Shown here piece by piece: positions 6,771 to 32,787 of a stretch of 35,344 nucleotides of DNA. A program made the position numbers and the translations under genes. The notes below the pieces were generated by a model. The model searched no databases. It was not told where the DNA came from and worked only from the letters and a program-made list of their open reading frames with translations. Location: contig JASKKH010000018.1 of NCBI GenBank assembly GCA_030154265.1, positions 1 through 35,344 on the forward strand, given 5' to 3'. Positions within the stretch are counted from its first letter, which is position 1; each line of letters begins with the position of its first letter. This stretch comes from Clostridia bacterium. GTDB lineage: Bacteria > Bacillota > DSM-521 > Neomoorellales > Neomoorellaceae.

Positions 6771-8075
6771 TTATTTTATTATCTCATAAATTAAAGGTTG
6801 GGATTCCGGCTTTTTATTTGATAAAGTATAGGCATTTATAAACTGTTCTTTTGCCTTTTCAAAGTTGTCCTTCTCATTAACATGAAAAATAGCTAAGGGT
6901 TCCCCTTTTGTTAAATAATCACCTTTACGTTTTTTTAGTTCAATACCGACAGCTAAATCAATTGGGCTAGTTTTAGTGACCCGTCCAGCCCCTAATAGCA
7001 TAGCTGCCTCCCCAACCATACGCGTCTCAATATTATAGATATATCCGTCAGATAGGGCAGTTATAGTTATTTGATGCTTAGCTTGGGGTAAGAGTTCAGG
7101 TCTTTCTACAACTGCGGGATCTCCTCCCTGAGCAGCTATAAATTCCTTTAATTTTGTTAATCCCCGACCTGTTGTTAATAAAAGTTCTAAGCGTTCATAA
7201 CCTTCCTCAGCAGATTTTACTACCCCAGCCAAAAGGAGCATTTGGCTTCCCAAAGTAAAGCAAACTTCCTTTAATTCCTTGGAACCGTTACCGGCTAAAA
7301 CTGAAATAGCCTCTTTGACTTCCAGCGCATTACCTACCATCATACCCAGGGGTTCATCCATATTAGTAATAACAGCCACAGTTTTGCGCCCTATTCCCCG
7401 GCCAATGTCAACCATGGTTTGAGCTAAATCTTTGGCCGAACTAAGATCTGGCATAAAGGCTCCATTCCCAACCTTCACATCTAAAACTATAGCATCAGCA
7501 CCAGCAGCAATTTTTTTGCTCATAACACTACTGGCAATTAATGGGATACTTTCAACCGTTGCCGTTACATCCCTTAAAGAATAGAGTTTGCCATCAGCCG
7601 GTACTAAGTTGCCCGTCTGAGATGTAATGGCTAACCCTATTTCCTTTACTTGCCGAAACATTTCTTCATAGGATAACTGAACCCTAAACCCTGGAATTGA
7701 TTCAAGCTTATCTATAGTCCCTCCGGTATGACCTAAACCCCTTCCAGCCATTTTAACAACAGGTATTCCAGCAGCAGCAACTAAAGGAGCCAAAACTAAA
7801 GTAGTAGTATCAGCTACACCACCAGTACTATGTTTGTCAACTTTAATCCCCGGAACCGCACTCCAGTCAATTTGTTCCCCTGATTCAACCATTGCCTGGG
7901 TAAGGGCAACTGTTTCCTCCTTATCCAAACCACGAAAAAAGACGGACATCATAAAAGCCGCCATTTGATAGTCAGGAATATGCCCTTGTGTATAATCTTG
8001 AATCATAGTCTTAATTTCTGCCGAAGTAAGTTTTAACCCTTCTCGTTTACGGCGAATTAATTCGACCATTCGCAT
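6771..8075 (-). CDS. pdp: Pyrimidine-nucleoside phosphorylase
   Basis: The protein has 434 residues, the normal length for Pdp/DeoA. It carries the phosphate and pyrimidine site KHSTGGVADTTT (about 81-92), the family signature AGRGLGHTGGTIDKLESIPGF (about 109-129), then SLRDVTATVESIPLI and SSVMSKKIAAGAD. The C-terminal beta domain is complete. It cleaves uridine, deoxyuridine and thymidine with phosphate to the base and (deoxy)ribose 1-phosphate, in cytoplasmic nucleoside salvage. The start ATG 8075 follows AAGGGGG; ATG 8069 is an alternative. It does not sit with other deo genes here, and no own terminator is obvious before the AT-rich gap to the aldolase/phosphatase gene. Confidence 0.95.
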   Translation of the reverse strand: MRMVELIRRKREGLKLTSAEIKTMIQDYTQGHIPDYQMAAFMMSVFFRGLDKEETVALTQAMVESGEQIDWSAVPGIKVDKHSTGGVADTTTLVLAPLVAAAGIPVVKMAGRGLGHTGGTIDKLESIPGFRVQLSYEEMFRQVKEIGLAITSQTGNLVPADGKLYSLRDVTATVESIPLIASSVMSKKIAAGADAIVLDVKVGNGAFMPDLSSAKDLAQTMVDIGRGIGRKTVAVITNMDEPLGMMVGNALEVKEAISVLAGNGSKELKEVCFTLGSQMLLLAGVVKSAEEGYERLELLLTTGRGLTKLKEFIAAQGGDPAVVERPELLPQAKHQITITALSDGYIYNIETRMVGEAAMLLGAGRVTKTSPIDLAVGIELKKRKGDYLTKGEPLAIFHVNEKDNFEKAKEQFINAYTLSNKKPESQPLIYEIIK

Positions 8076-8120
8076 ACTCTAAAAGCCCCCTTAAAGAAGC
8101 TCCACTTGGAGTTTGAAATA

Positions 8121-8168
8121 AAAAGAAAAAAGTAACCTCTTGCCATAAAGCAAACAAGAGGTTTTTAT
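8121..8168 (-). terminator. Intrinsic terminator of iorAB
   Basis: Stem AACCTCTTG / CAAGAGGTT (8134-8142 with 8155-8163). On the minus strand it is followed by ACTTTTTTCTTTTT. It also has a T-run on the plus strand, but no plus-strand gene ends here. Confidence 0.88.
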
Positions 8169-8203
8169 AACAATTATACCTATTTATAACAATATATGTC
8201 AAC

Positions 8204-8791
8204 TTAAATTCCTGCTGTTTCCCATCCTAATTGGAAAGCTTTTTTGTTAATTTCTAAGAAACGTTCTGGAACTGATGAAGCTAATGCTTCTTCCCAGGCT
8301 TCCCGACTTATAGGTAAGTACTTTGCCAAAGCACCCATCATTACCACATTAACAGCTTTAACGTTACCCGCCTGGCGAGCCAGATCAAAGGCATCAAGCA
8401 TTAATGTATTAGTAACCATTTTACTCATTTCATCCTCCAGAGCAGAAGGATAAGTTGTCGCTCCTATTAGAACTGGAAGAGGATGAATTTCTTCTTTATT
8501 TACAATCAACTTACCATCTGCGTTCAGGTAAGGCAACCATCGCCTAGCTTCTAACTTTTCAAAGGCTACAAGGAAATCTGCAGTACCTTCAGCCATAGCC
8601 GGTGAGTATACCTTGGGACCAAAGCGAACCTGAGTTACAACACTGCCACCACGTTGAGCCATACCATGAATATCTGAAACCTTAACTTCTCCCCCAAGGG
8701 AAACTGCAGCCCTTGATAAAATACGACCAGCCAAAATAGTTCCTTGGCCTCCAACCCCAACTAGTAAAATATTATATACTTTATTACTCAT
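8204..8791 (-). CDS. iorB: Indolepyruvate:ferredoxin oxidoreductase, beta subunit
   Basis: The protein is about 195 residues, the usual size for the gamma-domain subunit of 2-oxoacid:ferredoxin oxidoreductases. It has NILLVGVGGQGTILAGRIL near the N-terminus (nucleotide-type GxGGQG loop) and HGMAQRGGSVVTQVRFG, the block shared with IorB and PorC. With IorA it oxidises indolepyruvate and other aryl pyruvates to aryl acetyl-CoA, reducing ferredoxin. The ATG at 8791 overlaps the end of iorA by 8 bp and has AGGTGAGG just upstream; a GTG at 8800 would be longer but is less well placed. Translational coupling with iorA is likely. A terminator follows. Confidence 0.93.
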   Translation of the reverse strand: MSNKVYNILLVGVGGQGTILAGRILSRAAVSLGGEVKVSDIHGMAQRGGSVVTQVRFGPKVYSPAMAEGTADFLVAFEKLEARRWLPYLNADGKLIVNKEEIHPLPVLIGATTYPSALEDEMSKMVTNTLMLDAFDLARQAGNVKAVNVVMMGALAKYLPISREAWEEALASSVPERFLEINKKAFQLGWETAGI

Positions 8792-10574
8792 TAGCCTCAC
8801 CTGCTTTCACTATGGCCTTTGCCGGGCAAATCTGAGTACAAATGCCACAACCATTACACTGTACCTGGTCGACTACCACCTTCTTACCATCAAACGACAG
8901 AGCTGGACAGCCTAATCTTAAGCAGATTTTACAACCACGGCAAGCCTCAGGGTCGACCACACAAGTTGCCTCTTTTTCTTTACTTAACAGTGCACATGGA
9001 CGACGGGCAATAATTACAGAAGGTTCATCAGCTTCTGTCTCTTCACGAATAGCCTTTTCTACAGCTTTTAAATCATAATTATCAACTACTTGTACCCGTT
9101 TTATGCCTAATCCTTTAACAACCTGTTCTAAATCTACCTTATGGGCCTCTTCATGGCTAGCCGTATATCCTGTACCAGGATGATCCTGATGCCCAGTCAT
9201 GGCAGTAGTACTATTATCAAGGATTATCAAGGTGCCGTTTCCGCCATTATAAACCATGTTAACAAGTCCGGTCATGCCGGAATGTAAGAAAGTAGAGTCG
9301 CCAATTACACCTACCACTTTACGGCCAAACTCATTGCCTCTAGCCTTTTCTAACCCTAAAGAAACTCCCAGACTGGCCCCCATACAAATACATGTATCCA
9401 TGGCTTGCAGGGGAGGGGTAGCCCCCAAGGTATAACAACCGATATCACCAGCTACCACCATATTGAGTTTTTTCAGAATATAAAAGACAGCACGGTGGGG
9501 ACAGCCTGCACACATCAAAGGAGGTCTATTAGGAAGATTTGTTTCTGCCGTTGCAGCAGCTTGCATTGCCTCTGGCTTAGCCAAAGGAGCTAGTTCTGGA
9601 TCCAATTCTGCTACTTTTGCACCTACTGTCTTAGCAACAATATTACTGTTTAGTTCATCAACCCGTGGAATTAGCTCTTTGCCGATAACAGGTAAACCCC
9701 ATGCACGGATTTGGTCTTCAATGAATGGCTCTAGTTCTTCAACAACATAACAAGTCTCTACATTATTTATAAATTCACGAATTAGATTCTCCGGTAAAGG
9801 ATATGTTAAGCCTAATTTTAATACTGAAACATCAGGCATAACTTCTTTAACGTACTGATAAGCTATTCCGGAAGTAATTACTCCTACCCGCTTGTCAGCC
9901 CATTCCACACGGTTTAAAGGACTTGTTTCAGCATACTCCATGAGTTTCTTTCTGCGCTCTTCAACCACATAGTGGCGGGCTTTACCATAAGCAGGTAACA
10001 TAACGTATTTAGTAGGTTCTTTTGAATAATCTTTGAGGGATACTTCTTTACGCTCACCCAGCTCAACCAAACTATACGAATGAGCTACTCTAGTGGTAAG
10101 GCGAAGCATAACCGGAGTATCAAACTGCTCGCTAAGATCAAATCCGAACCCTACCATATCCTTTACTTCCTGACTATCGGAAGGCTCAAGACAAGGCATC
10201 TGGGCCATACGAGCATAAAAACGGTTATCCTGTTCATTCTGGGAACTAAATAAACCTGGATCGTCGGCGGATACTAAAATTAACCCGCCATTCACTCCAG
10301 TATATGCCAGAGTCATTAGAGGATCAGCTGCTACATTAACCCCTACATGTTTCATAGCAGCCAAAGCCCTGGCCCCACCAATGGAAGCACCAATTGCTAC
10401 TTCCAAGGCTACCTTTTCATTAGTAGACCATTCAGCATAAACTTCTTTGTACTGGGCTATGGCTTCTACTATTTCTGTACTTGGAGTACCTGGATAAGCA
10501 GCCGCTACCCTTACTCCTGCTTCCCAGGCTCCACGAGCCAAAGCATGATTCCCAATAAGTAATTCTTTCTTCAC
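8784..10574 (-). CDS. iorA: Indolepyruvate:ferredoxin oxidoreductase, alpha subunit
   Basis: The protein has about 596 residues and the full IorA architecture. An N-terminal pyruvate-ferredoxin-type domain (GNHALARGAWEAGVRVAAAYPGTPS) leads to a middle domain, then a TPP-binding domain with GDIGCYTLG and the motif GDSTFLHSGM followed by NMVYNGGNG and LDNSTTAMTGHQDHPG. The C-terminus is a two-cluster ferredoxin, CRGCKICLRLGCP and CNGCGICTQICP, for electron transfer. Substrates are aryl pyruvates from Trp, Phe and Tyr. Start: GTG at 10574 lies 7 nt behind AGGAGAGG; an upstream in-frame extension lacks a ribosome binding site. Downstream of it is iorB (overlap) and upstream a phenylacetate-CoA ligase gene, which fits aryl acetate/aryl acetyl-CoA interconversion with ATP gain. 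Confidence 0.95.
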   Translation of the reverse strand: MKKELLIGNHALARGAWEAGVRVAAAYPGTPSTEIVEAIAQYKEVYAEWSTNEKVALEVAIGASIGGARALAAMKHVGVNVAADPLMTLAYTGVNGGLILVSADDPGLFSSQNEQDNRFYARMAQMPCLEPSDSQEVKDMVGFGFDLSEQFDTPVMLRLTTRVAHSYSLVELGERKEVSLKDYSKEPTKYVMLPAYGKARHYVVEERRKKLMEYAETSPLNRVEWADKRVGVITSGIAYQYVKEVMPDVSVLKLGLTYPLPENLIREFINNVETCYVVEELEPFIEDQIRAWGLPVIGKELIPRVDELNSNIVAKTVGAKVAELDPELAPLAKPEAMQAAATAETNLPNRPPLMCAGCPHRAVFYILKKLNMVVAGDIGCYTLGATPPLQAMDTCICMGASLGVSLGLEKARGNEFGRKVVGVIGDSTFLHSGMTGLVNMVYNGGNGTLIILDNSTTAMTGHQDHPGTGYTASHEEAHKVDLEQVVKGLGIKRVQVVDNYDLKAVEKAIREETEADEPSVIIARRPCALLSKEKEATCVVDPEACRGCKICLRLGCPALSFDGKKVVVDQVQCNGCGICTQICPAKAIVKAGEANE

Positions 10575-29161: not shown

Positions 29162-30883
29162 CTAACTTGCTTCAACATCAATATCCTTAGTTGCTTCCCC
29201 TCTATGTAAATAATAAATGGAATCAACTACATTCATAAAAGCCTCAATAAGTTCCGGGTCGTAAAAAGTTCCCGCCCCAAGTTGTAGTTCTTTTAAACAT
29301 TCTTCATAACTCAGAGCATTACGGTATGGCCGATTAGACATCATAGCATCAAAACTATCTATAATGCGCAGGATCCTGGCGCTATACGGTATTTGATTTC
29401 CTTTTAATCCATAGGGGTACCCTGAACCATCAAAATTTTCATGGTGGTAAAGAACTACAGGTGAACAATCTGATAGTACCGCCACCTGTTCAATTATTTC
29501 AGCTCCCCATATAGGGTGTTGTCTGATAGTATATATATATTCCTCATCTTTTAAGGGTGAGGTTTTATTCAAAATCTCACGTTGTATTTCAATCTTACCA
29601 ATGTCGTGTAAAAATGCCCCTATCTCAAGTATTTCCTGCTCTTTTTTAGGTAAATTAAGATATTGTCCAAAAATACGAGTATACTCTGTAACACGTTCGG
29701 AATGTCCCCTTGTATACCGGTCCTTTGCATGAATGACACTAAGAAGTGTTTTTAACATATTAGCTAAGTCCCTGTCACTAAATTTAAAAGAAGCACATAT
29801 TTCATCAAATACAGAGTAGTAAATCTTAGATCTATTCTTAGTAACCGACTTAGCAGAAAAAAGAGCGTCATCTGTCCGTACAATTAATTCTTTTAATGTC
29901 TTAGCATGAAATGGATATGTTGCAATACCTATAGATAAAGTCAGCTTTTTTCCAGGCAAGTACTCTTTTCCATCAAAAGAATAACTCTCTATATTTTTAC
30001 GTATTTTTTCTGCAACTTCTAATGCTTGTTGGCTATTATATCCTGGTAAAATAATAGCAAACTCTTCGCCCCCATAACGTGCAGCAGTGACCTCTTTTGG
30101 TATCACTTTTTTTATTATTTCACCTGCAATCTTTAAAACTTCATCACCTTTAATATGACCTAATGTATCGTTATAAATTTTAAAATTATCTATATCTGCA
30201 ATAATAAGTGACAATTCTTTTTTCTGTTCCTCCGCCTTATCAAAAGCCTTATTTAAAACATGATAAAAGTATCGCTTATTCCATAGTCCGGTAAGTTCAT
30301 CTTTATTTGCTAATTCTTCAAGCTTTTTTAGGGTTACTCTTTCAATATCTATAAACCCTCCAACTAACCAGGCTGTCATAAATATTATCATGGTTAAAAT
30401 TAAATCCACTTCGAAGGTTTTAGATGGTCCTTCCCAGGAATCGTACAATAAATTCCAGGCAAAAATTGCAACGCTACAGAAACAACAATATATTATTCCA
30501 TATTTCTTTCCATGATTTACAGAAGCATAAATTACTGGTATTAAATAAAGTATCTTTAAAGACCTGCCGTTTAATTCTGCAAAAACAACGATAGACACCG
30601 TTAAAGCAAATACAATAAAAGTTACAATTAAACCACTAATCCCTGGGTTTTCTTTTAAGGTCATAGATGATAAATTATCTCTTCTTGTATAAGCTATCCC
30701 ACATAAAGCAAAACTAGAAAAAATTATTACATTTATCGCCAGGTAATTATCCATTACCTTATTATAAATAAAAGGAACTTTAAAAATACCAAATAAAGCC
30801 ATAACTACTAAGGTTAAAGCTGTTAAATGGAAAATTAATATATACTCGCTAACTTTTTTGTTCCGTTCTTTTTCCCACTTCAT
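29162..30883 (-). CDS. Membrane GGDEF + HD-GYP protein (c-di-GMP synthesis and breakdown)
   Basis: 573 residues. About six hydrophobic segments fill residues 14-178. A GGDEF domain spans about 192-360 with DELTGLWNKR and the active motif GGEEF (271-275). An HD-GYP domain spans about 375-560 with HD at 426-427 and HHENFDGSGYP (480-490). Both catalytic motifs look intact, so it could make and hydrolyse c-di-GMP. The usual RxxD inhibitory site before GGEEF is not visible (VTAA stands there). It is the last gene behind a c-di-GMP riboswitch and agrBD, 54 nt after agrD, with a hairpin between. The ribosome binding site is weak (GGGGT). A role in local feedback on the leader RNA is inferred. Confidence 0.93.
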   Translation of the reverse strand: MKWEKERNKKVSEYILIFHLTALTLVVMALFGIFKVPFIYNKVMDNYLAINVIIFSSFALCGIAYTRRDNLSSMTLKENPGISGLIVTFIVFALTVSIVVFAELNGRSLKILYLIPVIYASVNHGKKYGIIYCCFCSVAIFAWNLLYDSWEGPSKTFEVDLILTMIIFMTAWLVGGFIDIERVTLKKLEELANKDELTGLWNKRYFYHVLNKAFDKAEEQKKELSLIIADIDNFKIYNDTLGHIKGDEVLKIAGEIIKKVIPKEVTAARYGGEEFAIILPGYNSQQALEVAEKIRKNIESYSFDGKEYLPGKKLTLSIGIATYPFHAKTLKELIVRTDDALFSAKSVTKNRSKIYYSVFDEICASFKFSDRDLANMLKTLLSVIHAKDRYTRGHSERVTEYTRIFGQYLNLPKKEQEILEIGAFLHDIGKIEIQREILNKTSPLKDEEYIYTIRQHPIWGAEIIEQVAVLSDCSPVVLYHHENFDGSGYPYGLKGNQIPYSARILRIIDSFDAMMSNRPYRNALSYEECLKELQLGAGTFYDPELIEAFMNVVDSIYYLHRGEATKDIDVEAS

Positions 30884-30894
30884 GATTTATACCC

Positions 30895-30926
30895 CATAAA
30901 ATATAGAGAGGCATGTCACCTCTCTA
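30895..30926 (-). terminator. Hairpin between agrD and the GGDEF gene
   Basis: Stem AGAGAGG / CCTCTCT (30919-30925 with 30905-30911), loop TGACATG, then ATATTTTAT on the minus strand. It may end most agr transcripts before the GGDEF/HD-GYP gene. Confidence 0.65.
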
Positions 30927-30937
30927 ACCTTTATTTA

Positions 30938-31072
30938 TTATTTCCTTAAGCTCTTTGGTACTTCTGGTTCATAATGCATATAGTAACAGGCTGATGCAGC
31001 ATTTATAGAAGCAATAAAAGTAATAAGAAAAGCTGCAGAAGCTAATACCATTGTGCTTAAGCGCTTGAACAT
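30938..31072 (-). CDS. agrD: AgrD-like cyclic lactone autoinducer peptide precursor
   Basis: A 44-residue peptide with an N-terminal amphipathic/hydrophobic leader (MFKRLSTMVLASAAFLITFI), then ACYYMHY around Cys29, and the acidic tail EPEVPKSLRK. The order leader, Cys-aromatic core, PEVPKSL tail is the pattern of AgrD-like cyclic lactone precursors in Clostridia. AgrB would cut after the core and close a thiolactone on Cys29; ring size is uncertain (residues after Cys29 are YYMHY). The ATG lies behind GGGAGGTGAAAAC and overlaps the end of agrB by 16 bp, the classical agrB-agrD arrangement. No agrC/agrA pair is in the window. Confidence 0.9.
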   Translation of the reverse strand: MFKRLSTMVLASAAFLITFIASINAASACYYMHYEPEVPKSLRK

Positions 31073-31677
31073 GTTTTCACCTCCCTCAAATTAATTATCC
31101 TGGCTAATAAAATCATTAGACTCTGCCAGGTCAGTCCAACAGCCCCCGAAAAAGAAAGGGAAGGCCATCGTCTTAACATAAAGAGTAAGATTAAAGGAAC
31201 AATTATGGAAACAAAGATGGCCATCAGGTGTAACTTATGTCTAAGAACAGGTGATTTTATCGGTTTTTCTGGGTTTATTACCGGAGTATACAATATGCTT
31301 ATCAATAAACTGAAAAATCCACTGGATATGACTATATATAAAATATAAACCTTATTAAGAAAGCTTAAGCTTAGTAATAAACATATAAAACCCATAGTAC
31401 TAAAAATTAACACGGTAAAAACAATACATTTAAAAGGCGAGCTTAGATGTTTTCCCCCACCAGGTAACCTTAATAAACTCGCCGCAAACAAAGCAACCAC
31501 TGTCTCAGCCGGAGCCCCTACTAAAAAGCCACCTGCAATTACAGCTAGAAAACCTATAATCCCAATAAAAATTAACTCCAACCCATACACTAAAATTTCT
31601 TCGGGATAACTGTCAGATTTCTGTAACTTTATGGTTAAATATCTGGCACAGTTAACTGCTAATTTGTTGATACTCAA
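31057..31677 (-). CDS. agrB: Accessory gene regulator B (autoinducer-processing peptidase)
   Basis: About 206 residues with five or six membrane segments. The conserved RLPGGGKHLSSPFKC holds the catalytic His and Cys. With the TTG at 31677 as start they are His77 and Cys84, the same numbers as in S. aureus AgrB, and the N-terminus SINKLAVNCARYLTIKLQ matches the family. An upstream in-frame start at 31722 would overlap the previous gene by 71 bp and has no ribosome binding site; the site for 31677 is itself weak (GAAGGG, 13 nt away). AgrB cuts AgrD and forms the cyclic peptide in the membrane. It overlaps the frameshifted gene upstream and agrD downstream. Confidence 0.9.
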   Translation of the reverse strand: MSINKLAVNCARYLTIKLQKSDSYPEEILVYGLELIFIGIIGFLAVIAGGFLVGAPAETVVALFAASLLRLPGGGKHLSSPFKCIVFTVLIFSTMGFICLLLSLSFLNKVYILYIVISSGFFSLLISILYTPVINPEKPIKSPVLRHKLHLMAIFVSIIVPLILLFMLRRWPSLSFSGAVGLTWQSLMILLARIINLREVKTCSSA

Positions 31678-32184
31678 TTGACTGCCCAGTCCCTTCAAAT
31701 TTCCTTTGATTAAACTTAACAACTAACAACGACACAGCAAAAAGTAATATAACATTAGGCCAACCTGATAAAATAGTCATTAAGTTACTACTGTAAAGTT
31801 CCTCAAGGCTTAATCCGAATAAATTGAAAACCCAAACGAAAGCGGTCTCTCCTATAACCACAGTTAATAATTTTACAATTGCACTTCTTACAGCTATTCC
31901 CAAACTACATGAAGTAAAGAGTTTAAAAATTACTATTGTAATCCAAAAATTTAAAATAGTATTAACCCCAAAGGATATGGGTAATAAACGAATTAAGTAA
32001 AAAATAACCCCAAAAAGCATGCCCATTGGCAATATAGATTCCAACGTAAATTATAGCCAGCAACAGCATACATAAGAGTAGCAATACCTATAGATTCAGG
32101 TAACCCTTGAAACAACCAAACCATAAAAGGAATTTTCATTAGTCGCCAATCGCCTCCCTGTATCATAATTCTATATTTGGTCAA
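31652..32184 (-). pseudogene. Polytopic membrane protein gene with a frameshift
   Basis: Two overlapping frames look like one gene. The 5' frame starts with TTG 32184, 5 nt behind AGGAGG, and codes MTKYRIMIQGG..GLPESIGIATLMYAVAGYNLRW. At about 32041 it continues off-frame, while the neighbouring frame (from TTG 32044) codes ESILPMGMLFGVIFYLIRLLPISFGVNTILNFW and further membrane helices down to 31652. A single lost base near 32041 would split the protein. Joined, it would have about 175 residues and 4-5 helices; it is not a known enzyme. It is the first gene behind the c-di-GMP riboswitch and overlaps agrB. A sequencing error, a real null allele, or a programmed frameshift (no clear slippery heptamer seen) are all possible. 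Confidence 0.65.
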
Positions 32185-32233
32185 GTTTTCCTCCTAAAAT
32201 CTATTTTTATCGTGTATTTAAGGCATAATTAAA

Positions 32234-32269
32234 CAAAAATAAAAGCCTCGGGCAAATCTCCGAACCTTA
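32234..32269 (-). terminator. Terminator of the c-di-GMP riboswitch expression platform
   Basis: Minus-strand stem AAGGTTCGG / CCGAGGCTT with a G-G mismatch, followed by TTATTTTTG. It lies about 160 nt after the aptamer and 50 nt before the first start codon. A second inverted repeat, GGCAACTC/GAGTTGCC (32376-32384 with 32294-32302), could form an alternative fold. Confidence 0.65.
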
Positions 32270-32411
32270 AATTATTAAATCATTAACATGCAATGGCAAC
32301 TCAGGCATAACTACTTCTTTACTGCTCTGTCTCTTCCTCTATTTCTATAGTTTTGGTCTCTTCTTTCTCTATTTGGAGTTGCCAAAAATAGCTAAGTATA
32401 ACCAGTTATTT

Positions 32412-32520
32412 TTAAGCATTTTCGGCAACCCGGCTACCATAGTCATAATCATAATCATACAATAATTTAATCTTAGGCCCGCGCCTTGCGTCTTCGACTT
32501 TCATCGAATTTGTCATTATC
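32412..32520 (-). promoter_or_regulatory. c-di-GMP-I (GEMM-I) riboswitch aptamer
   Basis: Read on the minus strand, the element has the GEMM-I hallmarks in order: GACAAA, stem TTCGA/TCGAA closed by a GAAA tetraloop, GACGCAA, GGCGCGGGCCTAAG, and then, behind a variable arm, TATGGTAGCCGGGTTGCCGA. The pair CCTAAG..TATGG is the 11-nt receptor that docks the GAAA loop. The aptamer binds c-di-GMP in this family. It is transcribed from its own promoter and stands about 230 nt before the first gene of the agr cluster. Confidence 0.9.
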
Positions 32521-32535
32521 GTATGTCCTCATATA

Positions 32536-32565
32536 ACTATACATATTCCTTCGGTTAAAACTCAA
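32536..32565 (-). promoter_or_regulatory. Promoter of the c-di-GMP riboswitch/agr cluster
   Basis: -35 TTGAGT, 18 nt, -10 TATAGT on the minus strand; the expected start of RNA is about 10-15 nt before the aptamer. Confidence 0.65.
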
Positions 32566-32650: not shown

Positions 32651-32667
32651 GGAATAAATGAATAATG

Positions 32668-32787
32668 TAAAGGGGAGTAGCTTTTTAATAAAGTCGTCAG
32701 TACGAGATTAATTTCTCCGGCTTTATTAGCAACTTCGGTTGTTAGCAAGACCTTTACCGATATTAGGTGAAGGTCTTTTTATTTTTT
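32668..32787 (+). promoter_or_regulatory. yybP-ykoY (Mn2+) riboswitch with intrinsic terminator
   Basis: Typical yybP-ykoY sequence: AAAGGGGAGTAGC, GTCGTCAGTACG, CTCCGGCTTTATTAGCAAC, GTTGTTAGCAAGACCTTTACC. The last segment pairs with GGTGAAGGTCT (32766-32776), followed by TTTTATTTTTT, a terminator. In this class Mn2+ binding stabilises the aptamer and lets the transcript run into the exporter gene. The gene begins 47 nt after the terminator. Confidence 0.92.

Follow-up and report, generated by a model that had tools for sequence, protein, structure and literature searches.

In agr quorum sensing, AgrD is the peptide that AgrB processes and exports; in the staphylococcal and clostridial agr systems (agrBDCA), the two are accompanied by the membrane-bound sensor kinase AgrC and the regulator AgrA. 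An orphan agrB1D1 pair without cognate agrC or agrA occurs in Clostridioides difficile, and the receptor of its AgrD1 peptide is stated to be unidentified (PMC10602386); in C. difficile R20291, agr affects the enzymes of cyclic di-GMP (c-di-GMP) indirectly, via AgrA and changes at the transcript level (PMC3754575). Bc1 of Bacillus thuringiensis is a c-di-GMP-I (GEMM-I) riboswitch with a long expression platform that controls a chemoreceptor (PMC11218506). Here, we analyzed an agr-like operon in a stretch of 35,344 nucleotides (nt) from a Clostridia bacterium (contig JASKKH010000018.1 of assembly GCA_030154265.1; termed the window), in which agrB and agrD lie between genes for a small membrane protein, termed M, and for a membrane protein with GGDEF and HD-GYP domains, downstream of a c-di-GMP-I aptamer. 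We consider it rather probable that this is a variant agr operon in which a c-di-GMP output replaces the two-component system and which, in this lineage, is under a c-di-GMP-I riboswitch.

The locus shares with the staphylococcal and clostridial systems the AgrB and AgrD families and an adjoining membrane sensor, and its M protein is similar to the N-terminal half of AgrC-like kinases. It differs in having neither an AgrC kinase domain nor AgrA, and in its GGDEF/HD-GYP output domain, for which the predicted signal is c-di-GMP. Since the AgrC kinase and AgrA are two defining features of classical agr, we regard the locus as a variant and not as a member. Like C. difficile agrB1D1, it has agrBD without cognate agrC and agrA, but its operon encodes a receptor candidate, and whereas the link to c-di-GMP in R20291 is indirect, the receptor output proposed here would be the enzyme itself. 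The leader resembles Bc1 in its GEMM-I aptamer, long platform, and two hairpin positions; unlike Bc1, it would control an agr operon, its proximal hairpin has no T-run, and base pairing is possible between its aptamer and the region of the distal terminator. In the open-access literature, we found no description of agrBD with a GGDEF/HD-GYP receptor or of a c-di-GMP riboswitch on agr, in line with an earlier annotation of the window (the original prediction), which knew of no described circuit of this form.

Results

The operon runs on the minus strand from position 32565 to 29162 and comprises a promoter-like element, the c-di-GMP-I aptamer, a platform of ∼280 nt, M, agrB, agrD, and a gene whose product has six predicted transmembrane helices (6TM domain) ahead of the GGDEF and HD-GYP domains (Table 1). 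The host assembly (1.99 Mb, 99.9% complete) belongs to the family of Moorella and contains a single AgrB. The parts found agreed with the original prediction that the operon encodes an autoinducer, its processing enzyme, and a dual-domain membrane protein, headed by a GEMM-I aptamer with a promoter and a candidate terminator; its gene list missed the first gene, M, which lies in two frames. The reported lack of agrC and agrA also held, as we found no kinase domain in the operon and no LytTR/AgrA domain across the whole host assembly. Comparison with relatives makes TTG at 31677 the likely start of agrB. The C-terminal tail of AgrD is kept in relatives as [YH][EQ]PEVPxSLRK, preceded by variable residues, and the hairpin that follows agrD and precedes the last gene is possibly a weak or partial terminator, which would set the ratio of both genes, or a processing stem. 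In the 6TM-GGDEF-HD-GYP protein, the catalytic motifs are intact (GGEEF at 271, HDIGK at 426, and HHENFDGSGYP at 480) and no RxxD inhibitory site is present; judging from these motifs, the product could make or break c-di-GMP.

We then looked into the conservation of this gene order in 398 genomes sampled across the phylum of the window, 62 of which contain the 6TM domain. A scan of the genome contigs with the single AgrB sequence found no relative, and the relatives of the cassette were found via an alignment search of the 6TM domain. The order, whose conservation the original prediction had set beforehand as a test, recurs far beyond this genome: among the 63 6TM-domain loci with at least 1.6 kb of upstream sequence, 57 have agrB-agrD directly ahead of the 6TM gene and 52 show the complete order M-agrB-agrD-6TM. 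AgrB occurs in 163/398 genomes, mostly in one to three copies, so we estimate that it would be a chance neighbor of the 6TM gene in well under 1% of cases. Carriers of the cassette include Moorellaceae, Moorella, Thermanaeromonas, Syntrophomonadaceae, Thermacetogenium, Syntrophaceticus, Ammonifex, Romboutsia, and Faecalimicrobium.

Evaluation of the domains behind the 6TM domain revealed GGDEF plus HD-GYP in most loci and a PAS/GAF-histidine kinase at the same place of the cassette in a minority (L135, L137, L153, L154, and L158); 6TM-histidine kinases with another gene order or without agrBD were found in L129, L139, L155, and L204. As the 6TM domain is kept while the outputs are swapped, it is expected to be the input. 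In a second clade from Moorella and relatives (L046 to L057), cassette paralogues have a degenerate GGDEF motif and a kept HD-GYP signature, and their output is, from these motifs, probably that of a phosphodiesterase only. At one locus (L045, genome G008, 7385-9557), M is missing and agrB and agrD are truncated next to an intact 6TM-GGDEF-HD-GYP gene; the peptide thus appears to have been lost and the candidate receptor retained.

M is split by a 1-base deletion just after TGG near 32043. It is a single frame in the close relatives L040 to L044, and each half in the window is recognized by the M profile; the assembly does not distinguish a true mutation from a sequencing error, and no slippery site for programmed frameshifting was seen by eye. 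The same profile matches residues ∼10 to 165 of ∼460-aa AgrC-like kinases located beside agrB in 11 loci (independent E values down to 1e-22); four of these proteins were shown to be GHKL kinases. M and the kinase form one protein in L216 and two adjacent genes, one of them for a short GHKL kinase, in L114, L165, and L189. As judged by this homology, M is the sensor half of AgrC made as a separate protein. Because the 6TM protein takes the slot of the kinase in the GGDEF/HD-GYP cassettes and M is homologous to AgrC, both are receptor candidates, and together they would be the best candidate for the receptor of the peptide. The original prediction had offered the six-helix protein as a sensor, next to the option of a receptor encoded elsewhere; the protein remains a strong candidate in view of the output swapping, with M as another, perhaps primary, peptide-binding subunit. 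We also asked whether M and the 6TM domain belong to one family and rejected this, as no relation was detectable. Fold searches of either one against the PDB gave nothing significant (the best match of the 6TM domain, the membrane cyclase ImcA, had an E value of 0.024 and a TM score of 0.36 to 0.39), and a sequence search of the PDB gave nothing meaningful.

The 3' end of the aptamer lies ∼280 nt from M and ∼700 nt from agrB. Matches of the promoter type are no more frequent than in shuffled sequences, and the promoter call rests on position. In the aptamer, the ligand-contact nucleotides G20 and A47 (Vc2 numbering, taken through PMC11218506) and the GAAA loop are retained. G21, the partner of C46 in a supporting pair, is replaced by an A that mispairs with C46, and P3 is one base short. 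Eight c-di-GMP-I riboswitches are present in the host genome, ahead of genes that we named from their translations (Flp pilin, flgB, pilC-like, chemoreceptor, HD-GYP, secreted protein, PAS-domain, and the agr operon); the agr aptamer has the lowest score except for L008. The agr leader and the Flp-pilin leader of this genome are paralogues (∼165 nt aligned, E value of about 1e-21), and the other riboswitches do not align with the agr leader. The aptamer, which is diverged and perhaps decaying, may bind c-di-GMP.

We then analyzed how the leader could fold. The anti-P1 hairpin has 14 contiguous pairs (−22.5 kcal/mol, equaled by 4/1000 shuffles) and occupies the position of the terminator that is intact in the Flp-pilin leader, its T-run having been lost in the agr leader. 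In the Flp-pilin leader, read by eye, the 3' strand of P1 is able to base-pair with the 5' side of a clear terminator hairpin, which is an OFF arrangement. In the agr leader, the distal region is complementary to the aptamer along its full length (−55.6 kcal/mol versus −31.3 ± 4.4 kcal/mol for shuffled sequences, 0/1000). A pairing by chance was ruled out for the window with an unselected test of the 200 nt after each aptamer, in which the agr leader had a z score of −5.1 (0/200) and the other seven riboswitches had scores of −3.1 to +1.5, the value of −3.1, reached by L002, being a caveat to the test. The best overall fold of the leader (−71.9 kcal/mol) pairs the aptamer with the terminator region, versus about −58.6 kcal/mol when the aptamer forms and the remainder folds apart. 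As the paired fold is favored, readthrough is predicted without c-di-GMP and termination with it; in this folding model, c-di-GMP is thus predicted to turn the operon OFF.

No c-di-GMP riboswitch was found directly before the other M-agrB-agrD-GGDEF/HD-GYP cassettes examined. Two candidates were discarded, one assigned to a chemoreceptor gene at a distance of 4 kb (L116) and one lying downstream of a cyclase (L081). Among 65 agr loci without a 6TM gene, five classical operons from four genera (L114, L165, L189, L197, and L216) have a c-di-GMP-I aptamer 60 to 205 nt before the first gene. All five aptamers score above the gathering score of the Rfam family (73.1 bits in L114), and a terminator hairpin lies between the aptamer and the first agr gene in every case. 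The operons in L114, L165, L189, and L216 encode AgrB and AgrD along with a GHKL kinase, a LytTR-type regulator, and M, the last either on its own or fused to the kinase. Genomes have about 6 to 15 c-di-GMP-I riboswitches; assuming 1500 transcription units, less than one coincidence with agr is expected, and the probability of four independent cases would be on the order of 0.0003 to 0.006, a rough estimate as the loci were the best-scoring AgrB matches and not a random draw. The coupling of c-di-GMP riboswitches to agr operons as such recurs. Control of the autoinducer by c-di-GMP, as originally predicted, is nevertheless uncertain for the window: the coupling is found in four other genera, but the riboswitch is missing from the orthologous cassettes, the aptamer has diverged, and the T-run of the ancestral terminator was lost. 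Between the riboswitch terminator and the first agr gene, direct repeats like TTCAGACAAG with a period of ∼21 nt were seen in L165 (∼2530-2610), L189 (∼2530-2620), and L197 (∼2480-2560); from their sequence, they are candidate LytTR boxes, through which autoinduction may bypass the riboswitch.

Elsewhere in the host genome, we found one clear match to a GHKL-type ATPase domain (a 483-aa open reading frame, contig C42). A second AgrD, AAASGSWGYQPGVPEKLLK, with Ser replacing Cys, lies at the left end of contig C4 (L222, 2-966, genome G000) and is followed by two M-like frames. Probably, this is another agr locus, left incomplete where the contig stops, and the genome may therefore encode further receptors. 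The c-di-GMP-I riboswitch before flgB (L006, 1501-1589; G000:C56:66001-66089) has an A at the position of G20 in Vc2. This change is known from cGAMP-type GEMM-Ib riboswitches, and the flgB riboswitch may sense another dinucleotide. On the plus strand of the window (32660-32780), before a TerC/YkoY gene, a stretch with AAAGGGGAGTAGC, TCGTCAGTACGA, and a hairpin with a T-run resembles by eye the yybP-ykoY manganese riboswitch; it was not reported at the Rfam gathering score.

Table 1. Features of the agr-like operon, with positions in the window
Feature	Positions	Strand	Evidence
Promoter-like element, TTGAGT-18-TATAGT	32536..32565	-	Consensus scan; directly upstream of aptamer
c-di-GMP-I (GEMM-I) aptamer, RF01051	32421..32524	-	Rfam 55.8 bits versus gathering score of 35, E 1.8e-8
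Anti-P1 hairpin, GGGUUGCCGAAAAUGCU (32431-32415) with AGCUAUUUUUGGCAACUC (32393-32376)	32369..32431	-	Folding; paralogue alignment
Distal region complementary to aptamer, candidate antiterminator pairing	32232..32300	-	Duplex energy versus shuffles
Distal intrinsic terminator	32234..32270	-	Hairpin and T-run 32264-32247, −9.1 kcal/mol; then UUUUAUUUUUG
M, small membrane protein gene	31652..32139	-	One gene in two frames, 32184-31993 and 32044-31652
agrB, peptide-processing membrane protease	31057..31722	-	PF04647, E 2.5e-31
agrD, cyclic peptide precursor, ...NAASACYYMHYEPEVPKSLRK	30938..31072	-	TIGR04223, E 8.8e-10; adjoins agrB
Perfect 10-bp intergenic hairpin after agrD	30904..30926	-	Hairpin scan
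6TM-GGDEF-HD-GYP protein, 573 aa	29162..30883	-	GGDEF E 1.9e-42; HD-GYP E 4.8e-36; six predicted N-terminal helices

Discussion

We propose that AgrB would process and export the AgrD peptide and that a membrane receptor composed of M and the 6TM domain of the GGDEF/HD-GYP protein would sense it, as suggested by gene fusion, neighborhood, and output swapping; the peptide may bind M, the 6TM domain, or both. Binding would shift the balance between cyclase and phosphodiesterase, such that cell density would set the level of c-di-GMP. According to RNA folding, a bound aptamer would leave the distal terminator free and expression would stop, while a free aptamer would be dismantled by the anti-P1 hairpin and would pair with the terminator region, letting transcription continue; c-di-GMP would then repress the operon and close a feedback loop. 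Several points weigh against this proposal. M and the 6TM domain show no detectable relation to each other and have no significant structural match; the frameshift in the assembled M gene may mean a broken receptor in this organism; the second AgrD and M-like genes at a contig edge make an unseen receptor possible; the aptamer has the G21A change and a one-base deletion, and the proximal terminator is degenerate compared to that of the paralogue; and, among the GGDEF/HD-GYP cassettes examined, the riboswitch is limited to this genome.

The leader could instead be a copy of the Flp-pilin riboswitch that is decaying and blind to c-di-GMP, with the operon constitutive or otherwise controlled and only the peptide-to-c-di-GMP half of the circuit real. 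This is a serious possibility, although we hold it to be less plausible than a variant agr operon under riboswitch control: the paralogy of the leaders, the derived G21A, the deletion, the lost T-run, the near-lowest aptamer score in the genome, and the frameshift in M all fit decay, but the aptamer clears the Rfam gathering score and keeps G20, A47, and the GAAA loop, and its complementarity to the distal terminator, far above that of shuffled sequences, is unexpected for a decaying leader. That c-di-GMP would instead switch the operon ON seems improbable. The platform is unusually long and c-di-GMP-I riboswitches of both signs are known, but the fold that disrupts the aptamer also disrupts the terminator, and the paralogous Flp-pilin leader, by eye, is evidently an OFF arrangement.

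As for the peptide, the GGDEF/HD-GYP protein could be co-transcribed and take no part in sensing, the peptide being sensed by another kinase or acting on other cells. We find this unlikely: the GHKL-type ATPase domain and the second agrD/M locus at a contig edge would allow it, but the gene order is conserved over many families, outputs are swapped behind the same 6TM domain, and no LytTR regulator was found in the genome. A nonsignaling role of the AgrB/AgrD peptide, e.g., bacteriocin-like, is very improbable; the classical receptor pair is not beside the genes, but the conserved AgrD tail with variable residues before it is typical of AgrD signals, and the linkage to a sensory protein is constant.

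In the carriers of the cassette, a peptide signal is thus probably wired directly into c-di-GMP. It is a tentative extension, about as likely as not, that these loci form a class widespread among Bacillota, whose cyclic AgrD peptide would be received by M and the 6TM-GGDEF-HD-GYP protein and read as c-di-GMP without a dedicated transcription factor, some lineages closing the loop by riboswitch-controlled peptide production. Our analysis proposes a receptor for agrBD genes without agrC and agrA, which is an open question for orphan agrBD loci. If true, it would link a peptide signal directly to c-di-GMP, and the c-di-GMP riboswitches before agr operons in several genera would place the decision to signal under the control of a second messenger.

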